From IMG/VR virus record IMGVR_UViG_3300044997_000886, positions 1-51,093 of that record: a DNA stretch of 51,093 nucleotides. The stretch is one strand, 5' to 3'. Shown one piece after another: positions 3,124 through 28,900 of this stretch (its first letter is position 1; each line of letters begins with the position of its first letter). A program made the translations under genes and the position numbers. This stretch comes from a virus. The notes beneath the pieces are model-generated. The model was not told the origin of the DNA. It worked only from the letters and a program-made list of their open reading frames with translations, and searched no databases.

Positions 3124-3125
3124 TA

Positions 3126-3154: not shown

Positions 3155-3164
3155 ATAAATATAT

Positions 3165-4331: not shown

Positions 4332-4662
4332 TCTAAAAGTTGATGAAGCATATGCCTTTGATTATCTAAGCATATTAGAGATAAAAAAAGACCTTAATGA
4401 TCTATGTCAAAAAAATTGGGAGAACTGCTTTTATCACATGGAAGAACAAATTGGTAAAGATAAAATGAATGAAATTATAAATTCTTTAGAATATCAATTA
4501 ATGATAAGCACAAATAAATTAACCTTTGATGCGGTAGAGAAGGCTAGATATGGAGATATATCGGCGAAAGAAGTAGATGACGCAAACATGCTAAGACATA
4601 AAAGAAAGTTAGAATTACAATCTAAATTTTTTATTAATAACTTAATGGAATATAAAACATGA
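4324..4662 (+). CDS. Small protein of unknown function in sugar cassette
   Basis: A 112-residue, charged, mostly helical protein with no recognised catalytic motif. It starts MINLKVDEAYAFDYLSILE and continues with several predicted amphipathic helices. No signal peptide or membrane helix is visible. It overlaps the DegT-family gene by 8 nt and the GMD gene by 4 nt (ATGA), so it is translated as part of the operon. The position suggests an accessory role to one of the two flanking enzymes, but nothing in the protein itself shows this. Reality of the gene is well supported by the overlaps and by full use of the space; function is unknown. Confidence 0.7.
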   Translation: MINLKVDEAYAFDYLSILEIKKDLNDLCQKNWENCFYHMEEQIGKDKMNEIINSLEYQLMISTNKLTFDAVEKARYGDISAKEVDDANMLRHKRKLELQSKFFINNLMEYKT

Positions 4663-5720
4663 AAAAAGTAATAATAACTGGCGTAACTGGACAAGATGGT
4701 TCTTATATGGCAGATTATCTATTAAATAATACGAACTATATGATTTATGGTATTAGGAGGAGATCCTCAAATCCTAATCTAGAAAACATAAAACATAATT
4801 TAGAGAATCCAAGGTTTAAAATGGTTATTGGAGATCTCTCTGATAGTAACTCTTTGGACGAATTGGTTAGTCAAATTCAGCCAGATTATTTTATTAATTT
4901 TGCCGCGCAATCTTTCGTAGGAAGTAGTTGGCAAATACCATTACAGACATTTGATGCCACAGCTCTTGGAGTTTTAAGATGTTTAGAAGCAATCAGGAAA
5001 TATGCGCCAAATTGTAGATTTTATTCCGCTGGTTCAAGCGAAGAGATGGGAGACGTTCTTTATAGCCCACAAGATTTAAAGCATCCTATACGTCCAAGAA
5101 GTCCATATGGAGCAGCCAAAGCTGCAGCAAGACATATTACAAAAGTATATCGAGAATCTTATAATCTATTCGCAATTCATTCTATATTATATAATCATGA
5201 AAGCGAAAGAAGAGGGGAAGAATTTGTTACAAGAAAAATTACTCAAAATGTAGCAAGAATAAATAGAAGTATTGAAAGTAAATCGCCTTTTGAACCTCTC
5301 GAACTAGGAAATCTTGATTCAAAAAGAGATTGGAGTCATGCCGAAGACTTTATAAGAGGTATTTGGTTAATGCTTAATCAAGAAAAACCAAAGGAATATA
5401 TTTTATCTTCAAATGAAACTCATTCTGTAAGAGAGTTTGTAGAAAAATCTTTTCAATTCGTTGGTATTAATGAATTCTATTGGATAGGAGAAAAAGAGAA
5501 TGAATCTTTAGTATTACCAGATTATTTGGTGCTAGATGGTAATGTGCAATCTAAAGTTTTAGTAAAAATAAATCCAAAATTCTATAGACCAGCCGAAGTT
5601 GATTTATTACTAGGAGATTCTACTAAAGCCAGAAGTGAATTGGGTTGGAAACCAGAAAATTCTTTTGATGATTTAATTAAAAGAATGGTAGAAAATGATA
5701 TTAAAAAGATTAAGATTTGA
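4659..5720 (+). CDS. gmd: GDP-mannose 4,6-dehydratase
   Basis: A 353-residue extended SDR of normal length for GMD. It converts GDP-D-mannose to GDP-4-keto-6-deoxy-D-mannose, the branch point for fucose, rhamnose, perosamine and colitose. The NADP-binding motif GVTGQDGSYMADYLL (residues 8-22) and GIRRRSS (31-37) are characteristic. The catalytic set is S126 (in place of the usual Thr), E128, Y150 and K154 in RSPYGAAK. The family signature ILYNHESERRGEEFVTRKI is spread over residues 176-194 and matches GMD closely. The start overlaps the previous stop (ATGA). With the His-type DegT enzyme nearby it suggests local synthesis of a GDP-dideoxysugar. Threonine-to-serine at the catalytic site is the only deviation seen. 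Confidence 0.93.
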   Translation: MKKVIITGVTGQDGSYMADYLLNNTNYMIYGIRRRSSNPNLENIKHNLENPRFKMVIGDLSDSNSLDELVSQIQPDYFINFAAQSFVGSSWQIPLQTFDATALGVLRCLEAIRKYAPNCRFYSAGSSEEMGDVLYSPQDLKHPIRPRSPYGAAKAAARHITKVYRESYNLFAIHSILYNHESERRGEEFVTRKITQNVARINRSIESKSPFEPLELGNLDSKRDWSHAEDFIRGIWLMLNQEKPKEYILSSNETHSVREFVEKSFQFVGINEFYWIGEKENESLVLPDYLVLDGNVQSKVLVKINPKFYRPAEVDLLLGDSTKARSELGWKPENSFDDLIKRMVENDIKKIKI

Positions 5721-6117
5721 GATTAAATTCTGGTTTGAGAATTTATTTAAATATAAACACGGATATGCGAAAAATTGCACAGGTAAAAAATCTAAGAAAT
5801 GTCCAGTATGCAATACTCCTTGGCCAATAATTAAAAAAACTCCTACAAGAAAATATTTAGAATCTATAGATTATTATAATAATTATAGAACTATATATTT
5901 TCCATCAAATGAAAACGATGGACTCAGTCACGTTGGAGGAATTTATAAAGGAGGATATTTAGAGTTTCCAAAAGGTATGAATGACCAAGAACTAATTGAG
6001 ATTACAAAAAAATTAAAACCAGAGTATGATATCTTAACTAAAGGAACAGGAGAGAAAGAATTAAAGAAAAGAGGCGCATTAGAAGGTCATAATGAAGAAG
6101 ATATCAACAAATCATAA
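5695..6117 (+). CDS. Unknown protein with a CPVC zinc-knuckle-like motif
   Basis: A 140-residue basic protein. The N-terminal part has a KNCTGKKSKKCPVCNTPWP segment (about residues 26-44) with C28, C37 and C40, suggesting a small metal site, although a fourth ligand is not obvious. The rest (YFPSNENDG, then VGGIYKGGYLEFP) looks like a compact beta-rich domain. No known family is recognised. The start lies 26 nt inside the GMD gene and the end overlaps the next ORF by 26 nt. No alternative in-frame ATG occurs before residue 95, so this start is likely. Function unknown; it may belong to the cassette or be an independent early gene. Confidence 0.6.
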   Translation: MILKRLRFEIKFWFENLFKYKHGYAKNCTGKKSKKCPVCNTPWPIIKKTPTRKYLESIDYYNNYRTIYFPSNENDGLSHVGGIYKGGYLEFPKGMNDQELIEITKKLKPEYDILTKGTGEKELKKRGALEGHNEEDINKS

Positions 6118-6442
6118 ATTATGTCAAATGATTGTAAAGAAATTTGTCAAAGGAAATATTAATTGGGCAAGAGAAATAAAAATAGCTCAAAAATTAATAA
6201 AAAGATTTAATAGTTTTAATTTTTGGGATAATCTAAAACAATTAGGAAGTCCTCCTCCTTCTTTAGCTTGGTTTCTTAAACCAGAAGGAAAAGCTTTTTT
6301 ATTAAGAGAATATGAAACATTTAATTTAAAATTAAATAAAAATTTAATATCATTAGAAAGAGATAAGGTGGGTGTTGATAAAAAAATATTTAAAAAATCT
6401 AAAACTCTAATTGATTTTTTAAAAAATAAAAATGAAGCATAA
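6092..6442 (+). CDS. Small basic protein of unknown function
   Basis: A 116-residue lysine-rich protein, mostly alpha-helical by composition, with one proline break (GSPPPSLAWFLKPEG) in the middle. No known domain is recognised. It overlaps the previous gene by 26 nt and the next glycosyltransferase by 11 nt. A GAAGG sequence a few bases before the ATG at 6092 supports this start; an internal in-frame ATG at 6128 is the alternative. Coding potential rests on length, gene packing and absence of a competing frame. Function unknown. Confidence 0.55.
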   Translation: MKKISTNHKLCQMIVKKFVKGNINWAREIKIAQKLIKRFNSFNFWDNLKQLGSPPPSLAWFLKPEGKAFLLREYETFNLKLNKNLISLERDKVGVDKKIFKKSKTLIDFLKNKNEA

Positions 6443-7301
6443 TATATCCCTTGGAGCAATCTTTAAAAACGAGGAGCCATACTTAAAAGAGTGGATTGAC
6501 CATTATGTTTTTAGAGGAGTCGAACACTTCTATTTAATTAATGATGGAAGCACTGATAATTTCATAAAAATATTAAATGAATATATTGATAAAAAAATTG
6601 TAACAATATTTAACGTAGAGGCCAATCTAACATTTTTAAATAGACAATACGTAATCTATAATAAATTTTTTAATTTAATTAAAGATCAGACGAAATGGAT
6701 GATCGTATGTGATGTAGACGAATATATATGGAGCCCCTTGTCTACAAATTTTAATGATTTAGTTTCTATAATGGATAAAGATAATGTGTCTATATATTAT
6801 ACTGCATCAATATTATTTGGAAGTAACGGACATTTAAAACAACCTAAAAGTATTGTTGGGTCTTTTACAAAGAGACAAAATATAGATCTAAAAGCAATCA
6901 AATTTATAAAAGAATATCTTCAAACTAAATATATTTGCTTAACTTCTGAAGTAGATCAATTTGGAATACATGTCTGTAATATGAAGAAAAGTAGTACGAA
7001 AAATGAAGTGTATCGAAATCCTTTGCTTCTAAATACTTCTATTTTTAGATTAAATCATTATAGATTACAGTCTAAAGAAAAATGGCAGAAAAATCTATCT
7101 AAAACAGACGTAAATTGCTTTTGTCCACCTAATGCTTGCTGGTTTTCTCCATCTTTAGATTATGATATTAAAAATATTAAATATTTAACTGATAATTACA
7201 GAACAATCAAATTATTTGAAGATGCGGATAAAGAACAAAATTTAATAGAAGATAAAGAATTATTTTTACAAAATAGTCTTGCTAAAAAATTAAATAGCTA
7301 A
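6432..7301 (+). CDS. Glycosyltransferase, GT92-like (Glyco_tranf_2_4)
   Basis: A 289-residue GT-A enzyme. The N-terminus contains GAIFKNEEPYLKEWIDHY (residues 8-25) followed by GVEHFYLINDGSTDN (29-43), the standard opening of GT92/DUF23-like transferases. The acidic motif CDVDEYIW (93-100, D94, D96, E97) is the likely metal/UDP-sugar site. Later His/Cys-containing loops (FGIHVC, FRLNHY) match the region where this family places its acceptor-site residues. It probably adds a sugar to a phage- or host-derived glycan in the cytoplasm. It is the last gene of the cassette, overlapping its upstream neighbour by 11 nt, and is followed by a new promoter-like element before the recombinase gene. Confidence 0.83.
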   Translation: MKHNISLGAIFKNEEPYLKEWIDHYVFRGVEHFYLINDGSTDNFIKILNEYIDKKIVTIFNVEANLTFLNRQYVIYNKFFNLIKDQTKWMIVCDVDEYIWSPLSTNFNDLVSIMDKDNVSIYYTASILFGSNGHLKQPKSIVGSFTKRQNIDLKAIKFIKEYLQTKYICLTSEVDQFGIHVCNMKKSSTKNEVYRNPLLLNTSIFRLNHYRLQSKEKWQKNLSKTDVNCFCPPNACWFSPSLDYDIKNIKYLTDNYRTIKLFEDADKEQNLIEDKELFLQNSLAKKLNS

Positions 7302-9202: not shown

Positions 9203-10687
9203 ATGATATACTCTTTACAGGTAGAAAGACACGTATTAAGCGGGCTTTTAAAGCATCAAGATTTATTTGCGGATATTGATGTTTTTTTAACAGAAAATGA
9301 TTTTTATAATGATGTTCATGCATCTATATATACTGTATTTAAGAATATTAAACATAGGGGTGAAAATGTAGATAAAGTTCTGCTGGCCGAAAGGATCAAG
9401 AATTTAGGAATCACATTTAAAGATGAAATTAACATATTTGATTATGTAGATAACTTAAGTTTTTCTCAAATCACCGAAGAAGCCACATTAAATGCTTGTA
9501 AAGAATTAATTAAATTAAGAATTCGCAGAGAAATATCTCAAACAGCAGATAAATTAAAAGAATATATAAATAAAAATTCTGATGATTCAGTAGATCAAAT
9601 CATTGGTAAAATAGATCAAATATATAATAAAAAAATTTCTGTTTACTCCGAAAATGATATGCCAGTTAATATTTTCGCTGAGGTTGAAGACCTTGTCGAA
9701 GAAATTGGTAATACGCCAAAAGATGATACTGGATTAATCACACCATATTCTGAATTTAATAGAATGTATGGCGGTTTAAAAAATGGTAATATATATGCGA
9801 TAGCTAGTAGACCGGGACAAGGAAAATCAACTTGGCTAAATGATATCTGTTTTAAAACTTCAATTAATCCAAAGAATAAGACAAAAACATTAATTCTTGA
9901 TACAGAAATGCAAACGGTAGATATTCAATTAAGAATGGTCGCTTCATTGACTGATGTGCCAGTTTGGTATCTTGAAACGGGTAACTGGAGAAAAAATGAA
10001 GAAATGACAAAAAAAGTAAGAGCAGCTTGGGCAAAAGTTAAAACATATGAATATTTTCACTATCATGTTGGGAATAAAAATATTGATCAAGTATGTTCAA
10101 TTATTCGTAGATGGTATCTTTCTAAGGTTGGCCGTGGAAACCAAGCAATGATTGCTTATGATTATATTAAATTAACTGGAGAGAAAGTAAGTCAAAACTG
10201 GGCAGAACATCAGGCGATTGGAGAAAAAATTGATAAACTAAAAAGAATTTCAGAAGAAATTCATTGTCCAATTATAACAGCGATGCAATTAAATAGAACT
10301 GGAGAAAATTTTAATAGAAATTCAAATAATGTCGTTGACGATAGCTCTGTCATTTCTCTTTCAGATAGACTTCAATGGTTCGCCTCGTTTGTAGCAATTT
10401 TTAGAAGAAAAACTTTAGACGAAATAACTCTTGATGGTCAAGCTTTTGGTACTCATAAATTAATACCTACAAAAACAAGATTTCAAGGCCGTGATGCGGC
10501 TGGGCATCAAGATTTAGTGAGAAGACTAGATTGCACGGGCAAAGAAGTATGGGCTCAAAATTATTTAAATTATCAAGTAACCAATTTTAATATTGAAGAA
10601 AGAGGATCTTTAAGAGATGTAGCAGAAAGACAAAGAGAACAATATCAACTAAATGATACAAATTCAAATGATGGAGAATTATTATGA
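9203..10687 (+). CDS. DnaB-type replicative DNA helicase
   Basis: A 494-residue two-domain helicase. Residues 1-120 form the DnaB N-terminal domain (MIYSLQVERHVLSGLL, then NDFYNDVHASIY). The RecA-like motor carries Walker A ASRPGQGKST (201-210, K208), a catalytic-Glu segment LILDTEMQ, and Walker B in MIAYDYIKL. The motif Q(L/M)NRTGEN and the arginine-rich C-terminal segment (LIPTKTRFQGRD) match DnaB and phage gp41-like helicases. It unwinds the fork 5'-3' and recruits the primase, encoded two genes downstream. It has its own promoter and overlaps thyX by 4 nt. Length is typical for the family. Confidence 0.92.
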   Translation: MIYSLQVERHVLSGLLKHQDLFADIDVFLTENDFYNDVHASIYTVFKNIKHRGENVDKVLLAERIKNLGITFKDEINIFDYVDNLSFSQITEEATLNACKELIKLRIRREISQTADKLKEYINKNSDDSVDQIIGKIDQIYNKKISVYSENDMPVNIFAEVEDLVEEIGNTPKDDTGLITPYSEFNRMYGGLKNGNIYAIASRPGQGKSTWLNDICFKTSINPKNKTKTLILDTEMQTVDIQLRMVASLTDVPVWYLETGNWRKNEEMTKKVRAAWAKVKTYEYFHYHVGNKNIDQVCSIIRRWYLSKVGRGNQAMIAYDYIKLTGEKVSQNWAEHQAIGEKIDKLKRISEEIHCPIITAMQLNRTGENFNRNSNNVVDDSSVISLSDRLQWFASFVAIFRRKTLDEITLDGQAFGTHKLIPTKTRFQGRDAAGHQDLVRRLDCTGKEVWAQNYLNYQVTNFNIEERGSLRDVAERQREQYQLNDTNSNDGELL

Positions 10688-11340
10688 ATGTACAACTAGT
10701 GTCAATTACAAAACCAGAAAATAAAGAACTTAAAAATTCTGAAGATTTAGTAGCTTATTGTGCTAGAGTGAGCAATCCATCAAATCAAATGAATATTGAA
10801 ACTGCACCAAAACTTTTGAAATTTTTAATTAAACATAAACATTGGAGTCCATTTGAACTAGTTGATATGTGTTTAGAAATTAAAACTAGTCGGGCTGTTG
10901 CGGCTCAAATTTTAAGACATAGATCTTTCTCATTTCAAGAATTTAGCCAAAGATATAGCGTTGCAAATGAATATGAAGACATAGAGTTAAGACTTCAAGG
11001 AGATAAAAATAGACAAGTTGGCGAAAAACTTTTACCAATAGACACAAATGCATATGATAGCGTCAGTAAACTTTTGGTTGAATCCTTATCTCTATCTCAA
11101 CATTGTTATGAAACTATGATAGAAAATGGGGTCGCAAAAGAAGTCGCAAGGATGATATTACCATTAACTACGCAAACTACTATGTATATGAAAGGCTCAT
11201 TAAGAAGTTGGATTCATTATATAGAATTAAGAACTGAACAAAATACACAAAAAGAGCATAGAGAAATCGCAGAAAAATGCAAAAAGATTTTCGTCAAAGA
11301 ATTCCCTACTATAAGTGAGGCATTAGAATGGAAGAAGTAA
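10684..11340 (+). CDS. thyX: FAD-dependent thymidylate synthase ThyX
   Basis: A 218-residue flavoenzyme of normal ThyX length. The defining motif RHRx7S is intact: R78-H79-R80 ... S88 within RHRSFSFQEFSQRY. HWSPFEL (about 53-59) and LPLTTQTTMYMKGSLRSW (C-terminal) are the other conserved segments. It makes dTMP from dUMP with methylene-tetrahydrofolate and NADPH, supplying thymidine for an AT-rich genome. It overlaps the helicase stop by 4 nt and the primase start by 13 nt, so it is embedded in the replisome operon, a common place in phages. No oddities seen. Confidence 0.95.
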   Translation: MNVQLVSITKPENKELKNSEDLVAYCARVSNPSNQMNIETAPKLLKFLIKHKHWSPFELVDMCLEIKTSRAVAAQILRHRSFSFQEFSQRYSVANEYEDIELRLQGDKNRQVGEKLLPIDTNAYDSVSKLLVESLSLSQHCYETMIENGVAKEVARMILPLTTQTTMYMKGSLRSWIHYIELRTEQNTQKEHREIAEKCKKIFVKEFPTISEALEWKK

Positions 11341-12233
11341 ACGTATATCAAATCCTGACAGATTTAGGATATAAATTAAAAGACTGTGGTAAAGAATATA
11401 GGGCTAGACCTCTTTACAGAGACAGCGATAATGATACTGTTTTAAAAATTTATAAAGATACGGGGCATTGGTTTGATTTTAAAGAAAATATTAGCGGTGA
11501 TTTTAGCTCTTTAGTAGGTATGACTCTAAAATTAGAAGATCCAGATAAAGCAAAAGAATGGTTAAAAGATAAAAACTTTACGCTAAATATTATCAAGGAA
11601 ACAAAAAAACCTCTATTAAAATCAACAAAAAAATTTGATCAAAGTTTACTTGCTAATTTAGAGAATAATCAATGTTATTGGAATAATAGAGGAATTAAAA
11701 ACGAAACGCTTACTGAATTTAAGGGCGGCGTAGGCAGAGCAGGAAAAATGAAAAACAGATATGTTTTCCCCATATTTGATATAAATAAGAATATTATTGG
11801 ATTTTCTGGTCGAGATGTAACAAATCTATCAAAGATTAAATGGAAACATCTTGGGGAAAAAAGCGATTTCCTTTATCCATTATTTTTGAATGCCGACATT
11901 ATTGAGGATCAAAGAGAAATTATTTTAGTTGAAAGTGTTGGCGATATGTTAAATTTATGGCAATCTGGAATTAAAAATGTTTTGGTTACATTTGGTACAA
12001 GTTTAAGTTTAGCCATTTTAAACTATTGTTTAAAAATTGATATAAAAAAAATCTATATTAGTTTAAACAATGACTCAGATAAGAATAATGCAGGTAATGT
12101 TGGGGCAGAGAAAACTTATTCAAGGCTAAAAAGATATTTTGATGAAAGACAATTACAAATAGCACTACCCACTAAAAAAGATTTTGGCGAAATGAATAAA
12201 GAAGAAATTTTACAATGGAAAAACAATCTCTAA
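11328..12233 (+). CDS. DnaG-type primase with TOPRIM domain, zinc site lost
   Basis: A 301-residue compact primase. Residues about 5-65 resemble the DnaG N-terminal zinc-binding domain in layout (YRARPLYRDSDNDT, then GHWFDFKENISGDFSSLV) but have only one cysteine, so a CHC2-type zinc site cannot form. The catalytic core follows: YVFPIFD and IIGFSGRD (145-163), then the TOPRIM domain with E202 in LVESVGD and D249-x-D251 in SLNNDSD. GTS at 223-225 is the usual TOPRIM turn. It synthesises RNA primers beside the DnaB-type helicase encoded upstream. No C-terminal helicase-interaction domain is obvious. It overlaps thyX by 13 nt and the nuclease gene by 19 nt. Confidence 0.85.
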   Translation: MEEVNVYQILTDLGYKLKDCGKEYRARPLYRDSDNDTVLKIYKDTGHWFDFKENISGDFSSLVGMTLKLEDPDKAKEWLKDKNFTLNIIKETKKPLLKSTKKFDQSLLANLENNQCYWNNRGIKNETLTEFKGGVGRAGKMKNRYVFPIFDINKNIIGFSGRDVTNLSKIKWKHLGEKSDFLYPLFLNADIIEDQREIILVESVGDMLNLWQSGIKNVLVTFGTSLSLAILNYCLKIDIKKIYISLNNDSDKNNAGNVGAEKTYSRLKRYFDERQLQIALPTKKDFGEMNKEEILQWKNNL

Positions 12234-13183
12234 AAGTTTTATCTGCCTCCAGAATTAAAACCCTCGAAACTTGCTCTTGGGTTTACTGGAATAATTATCA
12301 TACTAAAGTTCCCCAGAGTCAAAATGATGGAGCCTTAAGAGGTACAATTTGCCATACGATATTTGAATTACTTTTAAATTCAAAACATAAAAATCATTTT
12401 GATAAAATTATAAAAAAGAATTCAATAAAAGGCAGCAAAGCGATTACAAGATTAGTGAAAAAATTAAAAGCCAAAGTTGGTTTAGATCAATCAAATTTTG
12501 AAATTTTAGATCAAATGATAATGGTAGGCTTAAAACATGACTTCTTTGGTGAAAAAGATGGAAAAATTATATCACCAGAATATGCATTTGAAATCAAAAA
12601 TGATAGTCCAAAATATCATATTAAGGGTTTTATTGACAAACCCATTAAATCAAAGAATAAAATAGTTATAATTGACTATAAAAGCTCTAAAGCTAAATTC
12701 AAGGGTGATGACTTAGAAGCTAATATTCAAGCTATGATGTATAGTCTAGCTAGTAAAAAATTATGGCCTAAATTAAAACCAATAGTAAGATTTTTATTCC
12801 TTAGATTCCCCAAACAACCAATACAAGAGCTTGAGTTTACAGAAGATCAAATAAAAGGATTTGAGCATTATTTAGAGCATATTAATGACTATATTAATAA
12901 TTTTGATGAAAATTCGGCTAAAGTTAATTTTGCTATAGATAACGATAAAAGTAAATGGATGTGTGGCGTTGGAAATTGGAGATGTCCTTATAGAGATCCT
13001 TATGAATATTATGTAAAATTAAATAATAAGGATGAAATTATTGAAACTAGTCTAGAAGATAATTTTAAAGACTTAAAAGATTTTCGTGTTGAAAAAAGAA
13101 AATACAATGGATGCCCGAAGTTTAATCTACAAAAAACAAATGACGAATTTTTAGATAAATCAAAAGATGAATTTTTAGATTGA
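12215..13183 (+). CDS. PD-(D/E)XK nuclease (RecB/Cas4/AddB-like) with possible Fe-S cysteines
   Basis: A 322-residue exonuclease-like protein. It starts LSASRIKTLETCSWVYW (C20), has RGTICHTIFELLL with H47, catalytic D141 in KGFIDKP, D154-x-K156 in VIIDYKSS, and Q172/Y176 in ANIQAMMY. These are the ordered motifs of RecB-family nucleases. Cysteines C20, C250, C257 and C300 bracket the domain as in Cas4 and AddB, where four cysteines hold a [4Fe-4S] cluster, though the spacing of the last cysteine is wider here. It probably degrades or resects DNA ends with the RecA-like protein. The C-terminus contains a short direct repeat of DEFLD. A promoter overlaps its stop codon. Confidence 0.83.
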   Translation: MEKQSLKVLSASRIKTLETCSWVYWNNYHTKVPQSQNDGALRGTICHTIFELLLNSKHKNHFDKIIKKNSIKGSKAITRLVKKLKAKVGLDQSNFEILDQMIMVGLKHDFFGEKDGKIISPEYAFEIKNDSPKYHIKGFIDKPIKSKNKIVIIDYKSSKAKFKGDDLEANIQAMMYSLASKKLWPKLKPIVRFLFLRFPKQPIQELEFTEDQIKGFEHYLEHINDYINNFDENSAKVNFAIDNDKSKWMCGVGNWRCPYRDPYEYYVKLNNKDEIIETSLEDNFKDLKDFRVEKRKYNGCPKFNLQKTNDEFLDKSKDEFLD

Positions 13184-13215: not shown

Positions 13216-13968
13216 ATGATACCTTTATTTAAATCTCATTATTCTTTGGGAAGATCGGTCCTTACCTTAGAAGATAAGGAAGAAGCTGACGATTATCCAG
13301 ATTCCATAATTCAAATCGCTAAACAAAATAAATTAAAAGAAATATTTTTAGTAGAAGATAATATGTCATCATTTCTTGAAGCTTACACAAATACAAGAAA
13401 GAATGATATTAAGTTAAATTATGGATTAAGAATATCTATTACAGAATCAATAAATGATAAGACCGAAGAATCAAAACAAAAAACTTCGAAAATAATTATA
13501 TTCTTTCGTAATAAAAAAGGATATGAAACTTTAACTAAATTGTTTAGTATTGCTGCAAAAAATGGATTTTACTATGAACCAAGGTTAGATTATGAAACAT
13601 TAAATAAAAATTCATCTGAAGATCTATTGGTTGCAATACCATTTTATGATTCTTTTATATTTAATAATACATTAAGAAATTATATATGTATTCCTCAATT
13701 TAAATTAAAGCCAGTAGCATTTGCAGAAGAGAATGATCTACCATTTGATAAAATTATAGAAGAAAAAATTAAAAAATATATTAAAGAAAATGATATAGAT
13801 ATATTTAAAACAAAAAGTATCTATTACAATAAAAGAAAGGATTTCAAATCATATCTTACATTCAGATGCATAAATAATAGAAGCATTTTAAATAAACCAG
13901 AGATAGAACATATGTCAAGTAATGAATTTTGTTTTGAAAGTTTTTTGGAGCAAAAAAATCATGGATGA
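13216..13968 (+). CDS. PHP-like domain protein, detached N-terminus of Pol III alpha
   Basis: A 250-residue protein resembling the PHP domain at the N-terminus of DnaE. It opens PLFKSHYSLGRSVLTLED, which lines up with the family opening (H-x-H-S-x-Y-S-x-x-D-G). It continues with a segment that places residues into strand-helix pairs as DnaE PHP domains do (SIIQIAKQNKLKEIFLVEDN, then NYGLRISI, then GYETLTKLFSIA). The HxH metal-binding motif is not intact, so phosphatase or proofreading activity by this domain is unlikely; a structural role with the polymerase core is more plausible. It is followed by a separate exonuclease gene (8-nt overlap) and the polymerase core 900 nt downstream. Assignment rests on motif order and on context. 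Confidence 0.75.
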   Translation: MIPLFKSHYSLGRSVLTLEDKEEADDYPDSIIQIAKQNKLKEIFLVEDNMSSFLEAYTNTRKNDIKLNYGLRISITESINDKTEESKQKTSKIIIFFRNKKGYETLTKLFSIAAKNGFYYEPRLDYETLNKNSSEDLLVAIPFYDSFIFNNTLRNYICIPQFKLKPVAFAEENDLPFDKIIEEKIKKYIKENDIDIFKTKSIYYNKRKDFKSYLTFRCINNRSILNKPEIEHMSSNEFCFESFLEQKNHG

Positions 13969-14599
13969 TCATCTTCTTAGATATAATAAAACAAAGAACC
14001 TAGTATTTATAGATTGTGAGACATTTAATCTATGTTTAAATTTTTGTCATAATCTTCCTTGGCAAATTGCGATGATTAAAGTCCAAGGAGATAAAAAAAT
14101 TGACCAGAAAAATTTTTACCTTAAATGGCAAACAGACTTAAAAATAAGTCAAGACGCGGCAAGAATAACTAGATATGATCATAAAAAAGTAGAAAAAGAA
14201 GGCCACGACCCAAAGGAAATATTCCCTACAATAAAAGATTGGCTAGATCACGCGGATTATATCATAGGACATAATACAATTGGTTTTGATATTTATTTAA
14301 TAAAAGAATATTATAAATTTATGGGATGTAATTGGCAACACCTAATAAGTAAACTTATAGATACGAATGCTATTGCAAGAGGTATTAAATACGGAATACC
14401 ATATAATCCAAAAGAAAGTTTAATTGAATATCAATATAAAATTTATCACACCAAAAAGAAAAATATCAAAAGCTCTCTTACAGCTTTTGGTAAAGAAGAA
14501 GGTATAGAACATGATTATGATAAATTGCACGACGCAATTAATGATCTTGACCTTAATTTAAAAGTATGGAATAAATTAAAATGGAGACTAGAAGTATGA
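13961..14599 (+). CDS. DnaQ-like 3'-5' proofreading exonuclease (DEDDh)
   Basis: Residues are counted from the ATG at 13961. That start has GGAG at 13947-13950 ten bases upstream and overlaps the PHP-like gene by 8 nt; a more upstream ATG at 13922 would add 13 residues with no supporting site. The 212-residue protein has exo I LVFIDCETF (D18, E20), exo II IIGHNTIGFD, and exo III LHDAINDLD (H-D-A-x-x-D), giving a complete DEDDh set. It should remove misincorporated bases for the polymerase encoded downstream. The order PHP, Exo, Pol along this operon mirrors the domain order of PolC. Its TGA stop overlaps the start of a 23-codon ORF. Confidence 0.88.
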   Translation: MDDHLLRYNKTKNLVFIDCETFNLCLNFCHNLPWQIAMIKVQGDKKIDQKNFYLKWQTDLKISQDAARITRYDHKKVEKEGHDPKEIFPTIKDWLDHADYIIGHNTIGFDIYLIKEYYKFMGCNWQHLISKLIDTNAIARGIKYGIPYNPKESLIEYQYKIYHTKKKNIKSSLTAFGKEEGIEHDYDKLHDAINDLDLNLKVWNKLKWRLEV

Positions 14600-14667
14600 A
14601 CGAAAAAATTAATATAGAAGAATCTGATATGGAAAATGTTATATGGTTTTGTGGCATAAAGAGATAA
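14596..14667 (+). CDS. Tiny ORF (23 aa) between exonuclease and polymerase core
   Basis: ATG at 14596 overlaps the exonuclease stop (ATGA) and the frame runs 23 codons to TAA at 14665-14667, four bases before the next gene. The C-terminus is VIWFCGIKR. The coupled start and exact fit into the gap are the only support. It could be a real micropeptide or a translational bridge that keeps ribosomes coupled to the next start. No function can be assigned. Confidence 0.35.
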   Translation: MNEKINIEESDMENVIWFCGIKR

Positions 14668-14671
14668 TTAT

Positions 14672-14887
14672 ATGGCTTCACTAGATGATATATATGATAT
14701 GATTCAAAAATTAGATGATTCTAATATTGAATATCTTCTGATTACTATTCAAAAAGGCAAGAAGAATGGCAAAGCAGACGTTTTTTATTCTTTAAAAGAT
14801 AAAAATTCAATGAAAATATTAACTCAAGGATTAAAAGAGTTTACAAAAGAAATAGATAGGATAGACGATGAAGGCAAATTTGATTAA
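14672..14887 (+). CDS. Small acidic protein of unknown function inside replicase operon
   Basis: A 71-residue protein (starts MASLDDIYDMIQKLDDSN) with an N-terminal helix, a beta segment (EYLLITIQKGKK, then ADVFYSL) and an acidic C-terminal helix (DRIDDEGKFD). No known family is recognised. It lies between the exonuclease and the polymerase core and overlaps the core start by 20 nt. Its position suggests an accessory factor of the replicase, such as a stabilising peptide analogous in size to Pol III theta, but no sequence similarity is claimed. Gene reality is supported by packing. Confidence 0.6.
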   Translation: MASLDDIYDMIQKLDDSNIEYLLITIQKGKKNGKADVFYSLKDKNSMKILTQGLKEFTKEIDRIDDEGKFD

Positions 14888-17471
14888 TTATTCAGAAGAT
14901 AGGTCTTTTTTTTCTAAGTTTGAAAATGTAGATTTAGGTCTGCATGGCGTTAGGCTTCCAGAATTTAGCATAGAATCTTCTACAAAAAGACATCTTAATT
15001 TAAGTGAGGATGTTTCAAATTATGATTTCTTAAGAGGATTAGCTTTAAATGGCTTTAAAGAACTAAACATAAATAAAAATTTACCAGAATATAAAAAATA
15101 TGTAGATCGCGCCAAATATGAATTAGAAACTCTTAAAGAATTAGGATTTATTGATTATGTTTTATTAGTATGGGATGTTATTAACTTTTGTAAGACTAAT
15201 AATATACCCGTAGGACTAGGTAGAGGATCAGCGGCAGGGTCTTTAATTCTTTACCTTATAGGTGTTACTAGAATTGATCCAGTTAAATATAATCTTTATT
15301 TTGAAAGATTTATATCTAAGATTCGAGCTAAAAAGCAGGTTATAGATGGAGTAACATATCTTGATGGCAGTTTAATGTGTGACGTTGATTTGGATATTTG
15401 TTATTATAATCGTCATAAAGTATTAGAATATCTTGAAAATAAGTTTAAAGGTAAAACCAGCAAAATATTAACATTAAATAGTCTTAGTGGTAAATTATTA
15501 ATTAAGGAGTGTGGTAAAATTGTAGCAGAAAAGAGCGAAGAAGAGATGACAAATATTTCATCTTTAATTCCTAAAATATTTGGTCAAGTCAAAGATATTA
15601 CTACGGCTTATGAAGAAATAGAAAAGTTTAAAGAATGGTGCGATGAAAATAAAGAGGTTTATCAAATAGCCTTAAGACTAAGAGATTTAATTAAAAATAA
15701 AGGCGTTCATCCTTCTGGAGTTTTATTATCACATGATGATTTAGAAAAAAGTTGCGCTACAGAACTCTCATCAGATAAAGAGCCCGTTTCAAGTTTTGAC
15801 ATGAATTGGGTAAGTTTATTTAATATTAAACTTGATATCTTAGGACTAAGAAGCGTTTCTGTTGTTCATGATGTATGTAAAAATATTGATATTAAAATAG
15901 AAGATATTAATTTAAATGACGATTCTATATATAGAAATCTTCAAGATCTAAGATCTCCTCATGGTTTATTTCAGATTGAAGCGGATACAAATTTTAAAGT
16001 ATGTCAAAAAGTAAAACCTAAAAACTTAGAAGAATTAAGTGGAGTTTTAGCCCTCGCAAGACCGGGAGCTTTACAATTTGTAGACAAATATGCAAAATAT
16101 ACTAATACAGGAGAGTATGAAAGCATACATCCTTTCTTTGATGATATTTTAAAACAAACTGGTGGCGTCGCCCTTTATCAAGAGCAATTGATGCAGATGG
16201 TAAACAAGATTGGTTTCACTTTAGATGAGGCAGAAATCTTAAGAAGAATCGTGGGCAAGAAAAAAACTGAGGAAATCAAAGCGTGGCAGAAAAAAATTGA
16301 AACAAAAGTAAAACAAAATAAATTACCCAAAGAAGTAAGCGACATATTATGGAAAATCTTAGAAGATTCCGCAAATTACTCTTTTAATAAATCTCATTCT
16401 CTCGCTTATGCTGCATTAGCCGCAGTTACAATTTATCTTAAATTTAATCATCCACAACAATTCTTTTTATCTTTATTAAAGATGAGTAGAAATGAGCCTG
16501 ACCCAATTGGGGAAATTTCCAAAATTCAAAAAGAAATGCATGAATTTAATATCAAGTTATTGCCTCCTCATATTATTAAATCTACTATGGATTTTTCTAC
16601 AGAAGATCAACACATTAGATTTGGGCTGCTTTCAATTAAAGGAATTTCAGATAAATCTATTGAAAAATTAAATAGTTTTCGAAATAAATATTCTAATAAA
16701 TTTGAAATATTCCAAGCTGCAGAAGAAGCAGATTTAAATATTGGAGTTTTGTCGGCTTTAATTCAAGCCGGAGCCTTAAGTGGATTTAATCAATCTAGAA
16801 GTAAAATCGTATTAGAGGCGCAGCTTTGGAATATATTAACTTCTAAAGAAAAAAGATATGCAATATCTTTTGCTGAAAAGTTTGATTACGATTTAATTAA
16901 AATTATTAAACATCTTAATAAATTTACTGATGAAAAGAATTACGCAGTTATTAAAGACAACAGATTAAAAACAATTAAAAATAAATATGATCCTTATTTA
17001 AAAATATATAATCAAAATAGTAAAAGCGAAAGTTTTGCAAATTGGTATTATGAAAATAAACTTCTTGGATATACATATGATAAAACTCTCAGAGATATAT
17101 TTTCCGAAAAAAGAGAAAATTTAATTTCCTTATCAGATATACAAAATATTCAAATTAATACAAAAATAACTTTTGTTGGTCAAGTTAACGAAATATTTTC
17201 TGGAATATCTAAAAGCCAAAAAAAGACGAGATATGTAAGATTAAAGATTTCAGATGAAACGGGATATATAAATGTATTAATATTTAATGACAATATAGAA
17301 AATAATAAATTATTAAATAATAAAAATTTCGAAGAAGGCAACGTTGTTATTGTTAAAGGGTTAAGGAAAGACGATTGTATATTTGGAGATTTGGTTGCAA
17401 TTCAAGATCATGAAATATATATGAAATTAAATGATCTTAAGAAAATAATTGACAAAGATAATAATATATAA
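14868..17471 (+). CDS. dnaE: DNA polymerase III alpha-type catalytic core lacking PHP domain
   Basis: An 867-residue C-family polymerase. GLGRGSAAGS (117-126) and DPVKYNLYFERF (137-148) are the palm entry. CDVDLDI (171-177) supplies catalytic D172 and D174, and KLDILGLRS holds the third, D323. KGVHPSGVLL (278-287), ALARPGAL, ALYQEQLMQM and NYSFNKSHSLAYA are further family blocks. A C-terminal OB fold (ITFVGQVNEIF onward) is present. The usual N-terminal PHP domain (about 270 residues in E. coli DnaE) is absent and encoded separately at 13216. It should replicate the phage genome with the separate exonuclease. No clamp-binding motif was identified. It overlaps the small gene upstream by 20 nt. 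Confidence 0.93.
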   Translation: MKANLINYSEDRSFFSKFENVDLGLHGVRLPEFSIESSTKRHLNLSEDVSNYDFLRGLALNGFKELNINKNLPEYKKYVDRAKYELETLKELGFIDYVLLVWDVINFCKTNNIPVGLGRGSAAGSLILYLIGVTRIDPVKYNLYFERFISKIRAKKQVIDGVTYLDGSLMCDVDLDICYYNRHKVLEYLENKFKGKTSKILTLNSLSGKLLIKECGKIVAEKSEEEMTNISSLIPKIFGQVKDITTAYEEIEKFKEWCDENKEVYQIALRLRDLIKNKGVHPSGVLLSHDDLEKSCATELSSDKEPVSSFDMNWVSLFNIKLDILGLRSVSVVHDVCKNIDIKIEDINLNDDSIYRNLQDLRSPHGLFQIEADTNFKVCQKVKPKNLEELSGVLALARPGALQFVDKYAKYTNTGEYESIHPFFDDILKQTGGVALYQEQLMQMVNKIGFTLDEAEILRRIVGKKKTEEIKAWQKKIETKVKQNKLPKEVSDILWKILEDSANYSFNKSHSLAYAALAAVTIYLKFNHPQQFFLSLLKMSRNEPDPIGEISKIQKEMHEFNIKLLPPHIIKSTMDFSTEDQHIRFGLLSIKGISDKSIEKLNSFRNKYSNKFEIFQAAEEADLNIGVLSALIQAGALSGFNQSRSKIVLEAQLWNILTSKEKRYAISFAEKFDYDLIKIIKHLNKFTDEKNYAVIKDNRLKTIKNKYDPYLKIYNQNSKSESFANWYYENKLLGYTYDKTLRDIFSEKRENLISLSDIQNIQINTKITFVGQVNEIFSGISKSQKKTRYVRLKISDETGYINVLIFNDNIENNKLLNNKNFEEGNVVIVKGLRKDDCIFGDLVAIQDHEIYMKLNDLKKIIDKDNNI

Positions 17472-17483: not shown

Positions 17484-18026
17484 ATGATATCATTTTATAA
17501 ACCTAATAGTAAAAATACAGGAACTGCCTGTAGTTTTAGCGTAAATTCAAAAGAAGGCTCTGTATGGAGTTCGTTGATTAAACAAAGCTCTTGGAACGAA
17601 AACACAAAGACTGGATCGTTTTCTGATAATAGAGATAATCCTCAAAAGAGCGCAAGAGTTAAATTCTCTTTAACCGAAGCTGCTGGTCTACTAGAAGCGC
17701 TAGACAAAAATGTAGAATTTTCAGCATACCATTCATCAGACAAACAAGTAACGAAAATTAAATTCTCCCCTTATATCAAAGACGATAAGCAGGTTGGTTT
17801 TTCTTATAGCGTAAATAAAGAGACCAAAGATAATATAGAAAATAAACAATCATTTTTACTTGGATTTTACTTTAATGAGGCACGTCTATTAAGAGAGTTT
17901 CTTGTTCATGCGTTAAATTCTGTATTTAAAACTCAAGAAGTAGAAGCAATTAAAAAGATTAAAAATTCAAAACAAAATCAACCATCTAATAAATCAAACT
18001 TAGAAAAAGATGGTGAACTTTGGTAA
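17484..18026 (+). CDS. Unknown protein, candidate ssDNA-binding protein
   Basis: A 180-residue protein. Residues 1-150 appear beta-rich with alternating hydrophobic strands and aromatics (FYKPNS, CSFSVNS, FSAYHSS, KIKFSPYI, FSYSVNK, FLLGFYFNEARLLREFL). A lysine/asparagine-rich linker follows, then a short acidic tip ending EKDGELW. A folded beta domain, flexible linker and acidic tail is the design of many phage SSBs, and the gene lies directly after the polymerase with its own strong promoter. No family signature is recognised, so the SSB idea is inference only. Confidence 0.55.
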   Translation: MISFYKPNSKNTGTACSFSVNSKEGSVWSSLIKQSSWNENTKTGSFSDNRDNPQKSARVKFSLTEAAGLLEALDKNVEFSAYHSSDKQVTKIKFSPYIKDDKQVGFSYSVNKETKDNIENKQSFLLGFYFNEARLLREFLVHALNSVFKTQEVEAIKKIKNSKQNQPSNKSNLEKDGELW

Positions 18027-18029: not shown

Positions 18030-19964
18030 GTGTCCCGCAAAAAGAAAATAGTATATCAATCTGATTTTGCGTTAGCAAAAACTGGATTTGGAAGAGCTAC
18101 AAGAGCATTACTAACATATTTATATAATACTGGTAAATATGATATAGTTAATTATGCTTGTGGATTACAGTATTCTAATCCTGAACTAAAGAAGACCCCT
18201 TGGAAATCTGTGGGAGCATTGCCAGACAATCCTCAAGAAATAGAGCAATTAAATAAAGACCCAAATATAGCAAGACTTGCAAGTTATGGCGCACATTATT
18301 TAGATAGAATTATACAAGAAGAAAAACCAGATATTTATATAGCCGTACAAGATATTTGGGGTATAGATTTTGCAATAGGTAAAAAATGGTTTGAAAAAAT
18401 TACCTCAGTTCTTTGGACAACCCTAGACTCTCTTCCAATATTGCCTACTGCAGTAGAAGCGGCAAAAAAAACAAAAAACTATTGGATTTGGAGTAATTTT
18501 GCTACAAAAGCACTTCACAATTTAGGCTATAATAATATAGAAACAACGCACGGACCAATTGAATCTAAAAATTTTTTTAGATTAAATGATATCGCCCGCA
18601 AAGAACTTAGATTGAAATATAATATTTTGCCAGATGCATTTATTATTGGATATGTTTTTAGAAATCAGTTAAGAAAAAGCGTTCCTAATCTTTTAGAAGG
18701 ATATGCTTTATGGAAAAGATCAAATCCTCAAATAAAAAATACATTTCTTTTATTCCATACTCATTGGGGTGAAGGATGGAATATTCATAAACTCGCACAA
18801 GAATATAATATAGATTTACATGAAATTCTTACTACTTATGTTTGCAAAAGTTGTGGTGAGTATGAAATTAAACCATTTCATGGACAAGACGTAAATTGTA
18901 GATTCTGTGGCGCAGAAAAAAGTCAAACTACAACAAATGTTGGGATTGGCGTTACAGAGGAACAATTAAATGAAATTTATAATCTTATGGATGTTTATTG
19001 TCATCCTTTTACAAGCGGAGGACAAGAGATACCAATTCAAGAGGCTAAGCTTGCAGAATTAATAACGCTTGTAACAAATTACAGCTGTGGAGAAGAAATG
19101 TGTGAAGATGGGGCAGGATCTCTAGAACTAGAATGGTCAGAATATAGAGAACATGGAACAGAATTCATCAAAGCCTCTACAAAACCAAATTCAATTGCAA
19201 AACAAATTAATAAAGTTTATAATATGTCTCCTTCAAAAAGAAGAGAAATGGGACAGATCGCTAGGGATTGGACTATAGAAAACTATTCAATAGAAAAGAT
19301 AGGAAAAAAAATAGAAGATTTTATAGATTTTGCGCCGTTTACTGATTACGATTTTTCTCAAAAAGAAGAGCAAAAAGATCCTTACATTCAAATTTCAAAT
19401 ATTGAAGATAATGGTAAATGGCTAATATCTTTATATCATAATATTCTTAAGATGACTCAAGTAGATGAAAATGATGATGGATACAAATATTGGATGCAAG
19501 AATTCTCTAAAGGGGCAAAAAGACAAGATATAGAAAATTATTTTCGTCAGGTAGCTCTTCAAGAAAATGAGAAAAATAAAAAAGTTGAATTTGAAGACTT
19601 TTTAGACAAAGATGATAAAGGAAAAAGAATATTATATGTTATGCCAGAATCAATAGGAGATATTTATATGTCTACTGCTCTTTTTGAAAATATTAAAAAA
19701 CAATATCCAAGCCATAATTTATATGTTGCTATTAAACCTGAATATTTTGAGATTCTACAAGGAAATCCTTTTATACATAAATTATTACAATATGTGCCTC
19801 AGATGGATCAATTATTATGGTTAGAAGGAGTTGGAGGGCATGAAGGTTATTTTGATATAGCATTTTTACCTTTCGCAGGCACACAAAGATTTTTAGATTA
19901 TATACACAATGGTAAAACTAAAATTCAATTTGATATAAAGGAGTTTCAAAATGCATCTTCTTGA
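18030..19964 (+). CDS. Multidomain glycosyltransferase: GT4 with zinc-ribbon insert, DUF4214-like segment and N-terminal half of GT9
   Basis: A 644-residue protein from a GTG start 3 nt after the upstream stop. Residues 1-430 are a GT-B GT4-type enzyme: FALAKTGFGRATRAL near the start, and SGGQEIPIQEAKLAELI (329-345) with E333 and E338 as the donor-site E-x-E pair. A CxxC...CxxC zinc ribbon (C272, C275, C290, C293) is inserted before that. Residues about 463-512 (WLISLYHNILK, then YWMQEFSKGAKRQDIENYF) resemble DUF4214. From residue 531 the sequence is the N-terminal half of a GT9 heptosyltransferase (ILYVMPESIGDIYMSTALF, then LLQGNPFIHKLL-like). The GT9 C-terminal half is the next gene. Likely role: glycan assembly. 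Confidence 0.78.
   Translation: MSRKKKIVYQSDFALAKTGFGRATRALLTYLYNTGKYDIVNYACGLQYSNPELKKTPWKSVGALPDNPQEIEQLNKDPNIARLASYGAHYLDRIIQEEKPDIYIAVQDIWGIDFAIGKKWFEKITSVLWTTLDSLPILPTAVEAAKKTKNYWIWSNFATKALHNLGYNNIETTHGPIESKNFFRLNDIARKELRLKYNILPDAFIIGYVFRNQLRKSVPNLLEGYALWKRSNPQIKNTFLLFHTHWGEGWNIHKLAQEYNIDLHEILTTYVCKSCGEYEIKPFHGQDVNCRFCGAEKSQTTTNVGIGVTEEQLNEIYNLMDVYCHPFTSGGQEIPIQEAKLAELITLVTNYSCGEEMCEDGAGSLELEWSEYREHGTEFIKASTKPNSIAKQINKVYNMSPSKRREMGQIARDWTIENYSIEKIGKKIEDFIDFAPFTDYDFSQKEEQKDPYIQISNIEDNGKWLISLYHNILKMTQVDENDDGYKYWMQEFSKGAKRQDIENYFRQVALQENEKNKKVEFEDFLDKDDKGKRILYVMPESIGDIYMSTALFENIKKQYPSHNLYVAIKPEYFEILQGNPFIHKLLQYVPQMDQLLWLEGVGGHEGYFDIAFLPFAGTQRFLDYIHNGKTKIQFDIKEFQNASS
19938..19950 (+). promoter_or_regulatory. 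Shine-Dalgarno deciding the start of the GT9 C-half gene
   Basis: AAGGAG at 19938-19943 is 7 nt before the ATG at 19951. It lies inside the upstream gene and supports genuine independent initiation of the second gene, against a simple sequencing frameshift. Confidence 0.6.
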
Positions 19965-21093
19965 AAGATATGCGACATCTTGTGGGGTTAAAATTGGTAA
20001 ACCTCAAATTTATGATAATTTTTTTCCATTACCATTAGAGAAGTATATATGCTTTCAACCTTTTAGTAAATATTCATCTAAAAATTATGATTATTGGCAA
20101 GAAGTTTTAGATATCATTATTCCATATTTAAATAAATATAATATAAAAATCATACAAATTGGCGTAAAAGATGATAGACAACTTAATAATACAATATATT
20201 TAGCTGGTCAAACTAGTATTTCTCAAGCCGCATATATTATAAAAAATAGCTTGCTTCATTTTGGCGCAGATAGTTTTGGTGCCCATATTGCTTCTGGATA
20301 TGATAAAAAAATAGTAGCAATATATAGTAATAATAATATAGAAAATGTTAAGCCTTATTGGTCAAAGAAAGAAGACATCATTTTAATTAAACCTCGAGAT
20401 GGAACAATTAGGCCATCTTATTCAGCAGGAGAAAATCCAAAAAACATTAATAAAATTAAACCAGAAGATATTGCAAAGTCAATATTAGATCTCTTAAATA
20501 TTAAATATACAAATATACCTAAAACAGTTTATATTGGTGAAGACTTTTTGAATAAAACCTTCGAAGTTATATTAGATCAATTGATAAATCCAGATTCTAT
20601 ACCTGTGCCAAATCCAATTATAAGAATGGATTATTTTTTTAATGAACAAGGATTAGAGATTTTTTTACAAAAAAAGAAATGTATAATATTTACTAATTCA
20701 CAAATAAATATTGATTTATTAAAAAATTATAAAGCAAACATTGGACAAATTATCTATTTCATAGAACAAAATTGTGATATTAATTTTATTAAAAATTTAA
20801 AAAAGAATAATATATCATACGCACTTGTTTCTCATCTTTCAGAAAATGAGTTAAATAAATATAAAATTGATCTTATGGATTTAGGATTAATCCATCAAAA
20901 GAAATATAATGAAAAAATAAATATAAATAACACAGATAATTTGTATTATTCGTCTTCTAGGATAATAGTTTGCTCTGAAGGCCAATTTGGATCTAAATTT
21001 GAATGGAAAAATAAATCTGGTAAAAAAATAATAGATAATGAAGACTTCTGGAAAGAGTCTAGTAATTTTTATATTTTTTCAATTGACCAATAA
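19951..21093 (+). CDS. GT9 glycosyltransferase C-terminal half fused to an unknown domain
   Basis: A 380-residue protein starting MHLLERYATSCGVKIG, which corresponds to the helix that links the two Rossmann domains of GT9 enzymes. Residues 30-190 are the donor-binding half: KYICFQPFSKYSSK, IIQIGVKDD, then LHFGADSFGAHIASGYDKK, equivalent to the D-S-G-x-H-x-A loop. Residues 190-380 are a separate, unrecognised domain. It overlaps the preceding gene by 14 nt in another frame, has its own AAGGAG, and needs the GT9 N-half encoded at the end of that gene to make a complete GT-B fold. It may assemble in trans, or be joined by frameshifting at the CAAAAT stretch. Confidence 0.7.
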   Translation: MHLLERYATSCGVKIGKPQIYDNFFPLPLEKYICFQPFSKYSSKNYDYWQEVLDIIIPYLNKYNIKIIQIGVKDDRQLNNTIYLAGQTSISQAAYIIKNSLLHFGADSFGAHIASGYDKKIVAIYSNNNIENVKPYWSKKEDIILIKPRDGTIRPSYSAGENPKNINKIKPEDIAKSILDLLNIKYTNIPKTVYIGEDFLNKTFEVILDQLINPDSIPVPNPIIRMDYFFNEQGLEIFLQKKKCIIFTNSQINIDLLKNYKANIGQIIYFIEQNCDINFIKNLKKNNISYALVSHLSENELNKYKIDLMDLGLIHQKKYNEKININNTDNLYYSSSRIIVCSEGQFGSKFEWKNKSGKKIIDNEDFWKESSNFYIFSIDQ

Positions 21094-25959: not shown

Positions 25960-28900
25960 TTATAATAATCTAGAAGCATAGATTATATTATTATTTACAC
26001 TTCCAGTTAAGTTTCCAGAGAATACTCTAGTATTAAAGTATCCAGATATTTCATCAAATATATTTCTAGAATTTATTTGGAAATAAAATCTTTGTCCAGT
26101 TTTAATATTTGTGGTTATTTGCCATCCAGTTGGACTTGTTGGATTAATTTTGATAAATTCTCCAGTTATACTTACTCCTGTATATAGTTCAAATCCACCA
26201 GTAAAAGTTTTAGTTGCTAGGTAATAACCAGTAGCTATTCCAGAACTTCTTAAATTAAAGTTAGGATTTATAATTCTACCAGTTAAGGCGATTGTGCCTG
26301 TGAATAAACCAGTTAATACAATATTTGCATCGCCAGATAAATGCCCTGTTAGTCTAAGTCCTGTTTCAAGATTTATTCCACCAGTATAATTTTTATTAAT
26401 AAAACCAGAGAAATATCCTGTAACTAAACCTATTCCAGATCCACTTGTTGTTCCAGCAAGAGCAAATCCACTACTTATTCTTTCAAAATATCCAGATCCA
26501 GTTATATTTCTATTTTCATTTATAGATATATTTTGTATAGTTTTTAATCCTGAATATAATCCAATAGTAAATACTGGGACTAAACCACTTTCAAGGCCAC
26601 TATTTATTAAAGTTTGTGAAATATTTTCATTAATTTTTAGTCCTGTATTTGAAATTAAAAATGTTATGGTTTGACTGCCAGTAAATGTTCCTGTGCCAGA
26701 CCATGTACCAGTAAAACTTCCAGAAGTAGAACCACTAAATAAACCAACATAATTTTTAGTATACAAACCAGTTATTTTTATTCCAGAAATAAAATTACCG
26801 CTAAATTTAGATATAGGGGTAAGATCTAAATATGCTATACTATTTCCAGAAGGATATGGATAATTAGTAAAATCATAAGTGATCTGTGGAGAGTTAATTA
26901 TAGTTATTGTTCCTGTTGGTCCATTTGGGCTTCCTCCGCCGACAGCACTTACTATTGCAGTTCGAAAATATCTATAATTTAATTGTCCACTATATATTCC
27001 AAGCGAATTTCCTTCCGTAGTAGATCTCCATCCAGAAGTAACAATTTCGCTAGGAGACAAACTAGAGGAATGTGGTGGCAAACCTGTAACACCAGTAAAT
27101 GGACGATTAAATCCAGTAAAGTTTATAAAAGTTGGTCTAAATCCAGCGTTTTGATTGTTATAGTATCCAATTTTAAATAATACAATATCATTCCAATTTA
27201 TTAAATCATTTGATCCGCTCCAAGCGATAGGAAATCCGCCATGGCCCGCTGTATCATGATTTATAATAATTGTCGCTGGAAAATTAATTCCTGTTCCAGA
27301 AACCCCAATAGTTGGAATTAAATTGTTTCTGACGCCATTGAGATCATAAAATCCAGATGTTGTTATCTGGGGAGCAATAACAAATCCACTTAAATTTACA
27401 ATTCCTGTGCCAGTAATTGGGAAATATCCAGTAGATAAACCAGTTATAATAAAATTTGTTTTACTTCTATATAGACCAGTAGTATTTACATTCCCTGTAA
27501 AATTAAATATTCCTGTTCGTGTTAAAGTTTGATTAATAGTAATACTATTTTCTGTAAATATTTGACCAGTATTTATGTTGTATGGAGTTGTTACATATGA
27601 AAGTGTTTGAGGGTTAGAAACAGATATATTTAAATTCTGTCTAAATCCAGTTACAAGACCAGATAAAATTCCTGTATAATTTGCAACATATTCAAGATTA
27701 CCAGAAATACCAGTAGAACCAGTAATAGAGAATGATCCAGTAAGAAATCCTGTCATATTTCCAGATCCCAGTACGGTAATAAAATCTTGACCAATATGAT
27801 TAAATCCACTTCTTATCGACCATGCATTTCTATTTATTGTATTAATTGGTATTAGAGTCCCAGTATTTGGAATACCAGTGAATATAACATTTAAAGATTT
27901 CGCGCCAAAATCTGATTCAACAAAAGTCATAGTTCCTGTCGCATTGATATATCCAGTTGTTATAAAATTATTTTGACCAGTTACCCTAGCAATTCCACCA
28001 TGTTTATATTCTCCACTAAAAGTCATAAGCCCTGTGCCTGTAGATATAAAGTTATAAATTCCACTAAATGTATTACTTACGGGGAAAACATTTGATGGTA
28101 GAGTAACAAAACCTGATCCGGTTAATATAATACCAGTGACTGGAATTTTTCCTTGATTAGAATTAGAGAATAGAATTCCAGAATTAATTTGCCTAAATCC
28201 TGTGGCGATAAATAATTTATCAGATTCAAATGAAGAATTCACTAATAAATTTCTATTTATATTTACAAATCCAGTTCTTTCAACTCTTCCGACGTATGAA
28301 ACAGAATTTATATCTTGTATTAAAGATGTTCCTGTATACAATATATCGAAAATTGTACTTAATCTTCCTGTTATATTAATATTATTATTATAATTTATGT
28401 GGCTCCCAGTGATTATAAATTCATTAAATCCAGTTTTTAAACCTACATATCTAACATTACCAGAGCTTTCTATAAAAGAACCAGTAGCTCTAGATAATAA
28501 ATATCCAGTAGTTATACCTGAGCCAATCATTAATCTATTTGTTCGACCAGTCATAGGATTATCTGCATATAATCTTAATATATCTCCTGTGCTGTTAGCA
28601 GATCTAAATTCCAAATTATTTAAACTATTAAATTTATAAAGCGCAAGACCATGAGTAATGCCAGCGGCTATATCATAAATATTTGTCAGATTTAGGGCGG
28701 CATTATTTATACCTGTAGTTGATTGAGTATTGTCATTTCCCCAACCTGTTAGTTTATAATTATTAAATAAAGCGAAACTAATTGATCCATTTGGATTTGT
28801 TGACATTTTTAATACTCCGCTTAATCCATTTCCGGCCAATCTTCTAAGTGAAGTACTTCCCCAACCAGTAACTATATTATTATCTAATAATGCAAGAGCG

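Follow-up and report, generated by a model that had tools for sequence, protein, structure and literature searches.

How is a replicative polymerase organized when its PHP domain, its catalytic core and an exonuclease are encoded by separate neighbouring genes? The question is raised by IMG/VR virus record IMGVR_UViG_3300044997_000886, a linear record of 51,093 bases that is referred to here, in its whole length, as the window. In its region 13216-17471, a first-pass annotation described a DNA polymerase III (Pol III) alpha-type replicase divided among a PHP-like protein whose HxH metal motif is not intact, a complete DEDDh exonuclease and an 867-residue core with D172, D174 and D323. Each of these features was confirmed, and the replicase is ordinary in its chemistry and unusual in its architecture. 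We consider it likely that one cut, made in the ancestor of a phage clade, divided a DnaE-type alpha subunit and that the metal-dead PHP part is now a separate structural subunit beside the exonuclease and the core. The genes concerned are as follows.

13216..13968, plus strand: stand-alone PHP protein, 250 amino acids (aa), characterized by Pfam PHP, PRK05673, AlphaFold/Foldseek and the ratio of nonsynonymous to synonymous polymorphism (pN/pS)
13961..14599, plus strand: DEDDh 3'-5' exonuclease, 212 aa, matching RNase_T, PRK06310 and phrog_192; proposed proofreading subunit
13922-14599, plus strand: full open reading frame (ORF) of the exonuclease; the start conserved among relatives is 13961 (MDEHLLRY)
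14672..14887, plus strand: 71-aa protein, conserved in that part of the clade to which the window belongs and not beyond it
14868..17471, plus strand: PHP-less core of a DnaE-type Pol III alpha, 867 aa, with palm, fingers, HhH and a C-terminal OB fold

The 250-aa protein matches Pfam PHP at 7e-14 (score 52.9, cut-off 26.4), and structure prediction gives it the PHP fold. Its AlphaFold model, built with 45 aligned sequences, has a predicted local distance difference test (pLDDT) score of 86 and a predicted template modelling (pTM) score of 0.86. The top Foldseek matches of the model are Pol III alpha PHP domains with template modelling (TM) scores of 0.66-0.73, among them the E. coli chimera 4gx9, 2hnh, Taq 3e0d and Mycobacterium tuberculosis (Mtb) 7pu7, and its TM scores with PolC are 0.63-0.64. 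The metal site is lost, as in an alignment with active PHPs all nine ligand positions are changed, several of them to conserved Lys or Arg: the HxH region reads KSH, D becomes R13, E becomes R72, H becomes K92, and D-x-H becomes S-x-Y. In E. coli, the PHP domain stabilizes the polymerase even without metals, and the role of a metal-less PHP domain remains debated (PMC3666897).

The core matches the Pfam families DNA_pol3_alpha (3e-55), DNA_pol3_finger (2e-34) and HHH_6 (4e-17, residues 561-646), with an OB fold at 768-834 whose match to tRNA_anti-codon (1e-4) lies below the Pfam cut-off. Its catalytic D172, D174 and D323 align with those of E. coli (D401, D403 and D555) and Taq, and all three are invariant in 30 relatives. 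The C-terminal tau-binding domain of DnaE1 is absent, as the OB match is followed by only ~33 residues and the match to the DnaE model PRK05673 stops at column 1044 of 1146; by simple pattern search no beta-clamp motif was recognizable in the core.

Consistent with a split replicase, the PHP protein covers columns 12-247 of PRK05673 and the core columns 278-1044 (core 462 bits). The end of the PHP protein corresponds to Taq DnaE residue ~252, and the E. coli PHP domain is taken as residues 1-280 (PMC4703070). Together, these correspondences place the cut, by alignment, at the PHP/palm border, with about 25-30 linker residues gone; the PHP chain stops just past the strand that, in fused enzymes, is followed by the linker helices. 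A split intein as the cause of the PHP/core separation is not indicated, since Pfam detected no intein domain in the window proteins. Two relatives do have a core interrupted by apparent split inteins, each at a different conserved motif. In one (L245:4974-7958), the break lies after YSFNK and before SHS, with a weak match to Pfam Intein_splicing, while in the other (L272:6001-9048) it lies before SAAGS and the intein call comes from sequence reading only.

The exonuclease matches Pfam RNase_T (3.6e-10), the epsilon-like PRK06310 (6.6e-14) and phrog_192. Its full DEDDh set, D18, E20, D110, H190 and D195, is invariant in 35 relatives. The exonuclease gene starts before the PHP gene has ended, inside its final codons, so that these two genes overlap, and the 71-aa gene likewise overlaps the core gene. 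The first-pass annotation had the main genes separated by a 23-codon and a 71-codon ORF, of which only the latter holds up. The 71-aa protein is present in 88 of the 182 distinct loci described below and is modelled as a helix-hairpin-helix (pLDDT 84), with no family match in Pfam, PHROG or other family-model scans and no fold match in the PDB. By comparison, the ORF at 14581-14667 (28 codons, 23 from the inner ATG) is not a conserved element, and the spacing from the exonuclease to the 71-aa gene is about 1 nt in most close relatives.

The layout is widespread. Hundreds of loci were retrieved from IMG/VR in scans that used the core, the PHP protein or an alignment of distant cores as query, and GTDB contigs gave ten further loci at 44-53% identity. 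After removal of duplicates there were 182 distinct PHP/core pairs, and in every one of them PHP, exonuclease and core follow in that order on one strand, none being fused, which is far beyond chance. An independent scan seeded with the exonuclease found the split in all loci having both PHP and core (75/75), and a scan seeded with fused phage DnaE gave 80 fused loci out of 80, that exonuclease being absent from the flanking ~4 kb on each side in every case, indicating that the split and this exonuclease co-occur. The PHP/exonuclease junction is also a frequent insertion site for unrelated genes, which by clustering belong to at least eight families and occupy it in 65 of the 182 loci (L018, L067, L026, L240, L008 and L244 among others); between exonuclease and core insertions are rarer (9 loci). 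Searches by tblastn with the core, PHP or exonuclease found no cultured phage sharing the layout. Two candidates were rejected: RHEph10, whose match also touches a hypothetical gene, has a fused polymerase, and Cellulophaga phage phiST is split inside the palm. As the metagenome-assembled genome (MAG) names of L236-L245 conflict (Flavobacteria, Halobacteriovorax and others), no host is claimed.

Long relatives, here contigs of 47-172 kb, suggest that the split enzyme is the only replicase of its kind in these phages. Exactly one DNA_pol3_alpha match occurs in 18 of 18 such contigs, ruling out a second full-length DnaE elsewhere in them. Of the two observations that the first-pass annotation named as fatal to the split reading, a missing PHP fold and a separate full-length DnaE, neither was made. 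No family A (PolA) or family B (PolB) polymerase was found in any of 16 long contigs, and no beta clamp was detectable in 16. The pN/pS values are 0.08-0.10 for the core, for the exonuclease and for the 71-aa protein and 0.16-0.18 for the PHP protein, indicating that the replicase genes are conserved under purifying selection.

Given its degenerate metal site, the PHP protein might have left the replicase for another role, for example in nucleic-acid or ligand binding, with the core working without PHP. The change of all nine metal positions, several to conserved Lys or Arg, is what such a role might leave behind, as is a rate of evolution nearly twice that of the core, and PHP and exonuclease are often separated by unrelated genes. 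We nevertheless regard this as rather unlikely, since the PHP gene is never lost: all 16 of the 16 long contigs carry one copy, the gene precedes the exonuclease closely in every locus, and the C-terminal region of the protein is conserved right up to the cut site.

Whether the split is old or derived depends on where the core falls among known enzymes. In a phylogeny against DnaE1, DnaE2, DnaE3 and PolC, as proposed in the first-pass annotation, the split cores form one branch (support 100) outside DnaE1, DnaE2 and DnaE3 and among phage enzymes; the placement of PolC is not firm. With fusion seen in every outgroup (DnaE1, DnaE2, DnaE3, PolC and other phage DnaE), the split most likely arose secondarily. 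It was earlier suggested that the locus might be an intermediate before fusion, that is, an ancient stage at which PHP, exonuclease and core were still separate and which came before the fused forms DnaE and PolC. Such a stage would suit the clade's long stem, a root that the tree leaves unfixed and the absence of any fused member among those found inside the clade. It is improbable, however, given that every outgroup is fused, that the metal-dead PHP looks derived, and that the core is matched much more strongly by DnaE than by PolC, which puts it later than the PolC/DnaE duplication.

Still less credible, in our estimation, is the proposal that a PolC-type enzyme was cut at domain borders, the exonuclease gene being the former internal PolC exonuclease. 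PolC does share with the window a family C core and an exonuclease between the PHP start and the core, the gene order resembles the order of domain starts in PolC, and a tree joining PolC to the stem of the split clade survives the approximately unbiased (AU) test. However, in PolC the exonuclease lies inside the PHP domain on one chain. The PHP profile accordingly matches two PolC sequences in two pieces with about 165-175 residues, the exonuclease, between them, and a solved PolC in which a GSGSG linker replaces the exonuclease is interrupted at the same place. This interruption corresponds to residues ~76-92 of the window PHP, which is continuous there. The OB fold is N-terminal in PolC and C-terminal in DnaE (PMC3919608); in the window core it follows the HhH region, the DnaE arrangement. 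No PolC model matches the core, and a profile of the split cores scores 344 bits with DnaE3, 291-320 with DnaE1, 144-149 with DnaE2 and 14.6 with PolC. The exonuclease profile, similarly, matches neither of the two PolCs. By profile and domain arrangement, then, the core is of DnaE rather than PolC type, and "PHP, Exo, Pol" is a gene order only and not, as first annotated, the PolC domain order. An assembly or frameshift artefact, or a decayed polymerase replaced by another, has nothing in its favour beyond the unusual architecture and can be given almost no weight: 182 distinct loci, drawn from many metagenomes, share the layout, pN/pS is 0.08-0.18, and no other replicative polymerase was found in the long relatives.

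The explanation we favour is therefore a single fission of a fused dnaE at the PHP/palm border, ancestral to a large clade of phages and brought about perhaps through an exonuclease gene inserting into the PHP/palm linker. Under this scenario, the PHP protein would most likely dock non-covalently, in trans, on the core surface where ordinary DnaE has its PHP covalently attached, the three chains forming one assembly. It may also help to hold or position the separately encoded DEDDh exonuclease, which would perform proofreading; in E. coli the C-terminal helix of the exonuclease packs on the PHP domain (PMC4703070). The overlapping frames of PHP with exonuclease and of the 71-aa gene with the core would favour co-translation. 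Several points weigh against this explanation. The window exonuclease ends about 16 residues past the RNase_T domain and lacks the epsilon tail that in E. coli binds PHP and the clamp, so it must be attached in some other manner. Branches in the tree are long, and the grouping of PolC with the split clade survives the AU test at p 0.587, an outcome to be expected with two very long branches. All the long contigs may be fragments, and the correlation between PHP and core pairwise distances (r = 0.95), which speaks for the explanation, would arise equally if the two genes had simply been inherited together.

Comparison with known systems shows how this architecture departs from them. DnaE-type alpha subunits (DnaE1/DnaE3, as in E. 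coli and Taq, and the fused enzyme of Moorella phage MTATph1) have the same order of palm, fingers, HhH and C-terminal OB fold, the same catalytic Asp triad and the PHP fold, with a core identity of 26-32%. In the window, by contrast, PHP is a separate gene, the linker helices and the tau-binding domain are missing, and an exonuclease gene lies between the PHP and core pieces. Phage Pol III alpha is also made from separate proteins in group 2.2 jumbo phages, where the NTP-binding and the Mg/DNA-binding subdomain of a minimal enzyme are specified by widely separated genes, with other Pol III domains absent and a family B polymerase alongside (PMC7824862). The window, by comparison, has an undivided catalytic core with PHP encoded nearby, and no family B polymerase was found. 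Alpha is likewise on two chains in Bacillus phage KLEB27-3 (which has an HNH gene), Rossellomorea phage phiT1 and phiST, but the break in these is inside the core and PHP is still attached. Bacteroidetes DnaE1 can carry a fused exonuclease N-terminal to PHP (PMC3919608), and thus, like the window, combines a DnaE-type core with a DEDDh exonuclease that is not inside PHP; it does so on one chain with the exonuclease before PHP, whereas the window has three chains with the exonuclease gene after PHP. Other unusual family C loci were also encountered. On an Aneurinibacillus plasmid (L349:2002-5752), DnaE is followed by an overlapping separate OB-fold gene, another break at a domain border, and a Poribacteria MAG (L247:2376-6476) has a 1,366-aa ORF with sigma-70, FtsZ and DnaE in frame, which may be a fusion or an assembly oddity.

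The three genes belong to a replication cassette whose remaining members are listed here.

9203..10687, plus strand: DnaB-type replicative helicase (DnaB_C 2e-25); order conserved
10684..11340, plus strand: putative ThyX-like gene, 218 aa, named from sequence reading; order kept in close relatives
11328..12233, plus strand: DnaG-like primase with TOPRIM (TIGR01391 3e-19); order conserved
12215..13183, plus strand: Cas4-like PD-(D/E)XK nuclease (PDDEXK_1 8e-17), the constant upstream neighbour in nearly all close loci
17484..18026, plus strand: 180-aa protein immediately downstream of the core, with no Pfam or PHROG match; order kept in close relatives

In close relatives the cassette is mostly constant, running from DnaB through the ThyX-like gene, primase, Cas4-like nuclease, PHP, exonuclease, the 71-aa gene where present, and core to the 180-aa gene. 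The stretches flanking it (221-7301 and 18030-21093) appear by sequence reading to hold many sugar-nucleotide and glycosyltransferase-like genes; the two genes scanned, both at 18030-21093, matched glycosyltransferase families. On the minus strand at 22149-50859 lie long proteins, including one of 3,873 aa (25960-37581) and one of 1,861 aa (45274-50859); the latter has only weak PHROG matches, and six other proteins there have none.

PHP, Pol3 and HhH are considered the region that all bacterial family C polymerases conserve on a single chain (PMC3919608). The literature searched, from which subscription journals were mostly absent, yielded no account of a family C replicase with PHP as a stand-alone subunit. 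As the separation of PHP is natural and stable in these phages, the contribution of PHP could be assayed directly, using the core with and without PHP, without truncating a protein. The locus also shows exonuclease and alpha rearranged in a manner unlike both PolC and the exonuclease-DnaE1 fusions; the clade concerned comprises at least 182 distinct sequences from uncultivated phages. If an exonuclease gene did insert into dnaE, the event would be a gene-level parallel, at another site, to the insertion that defines PolC.

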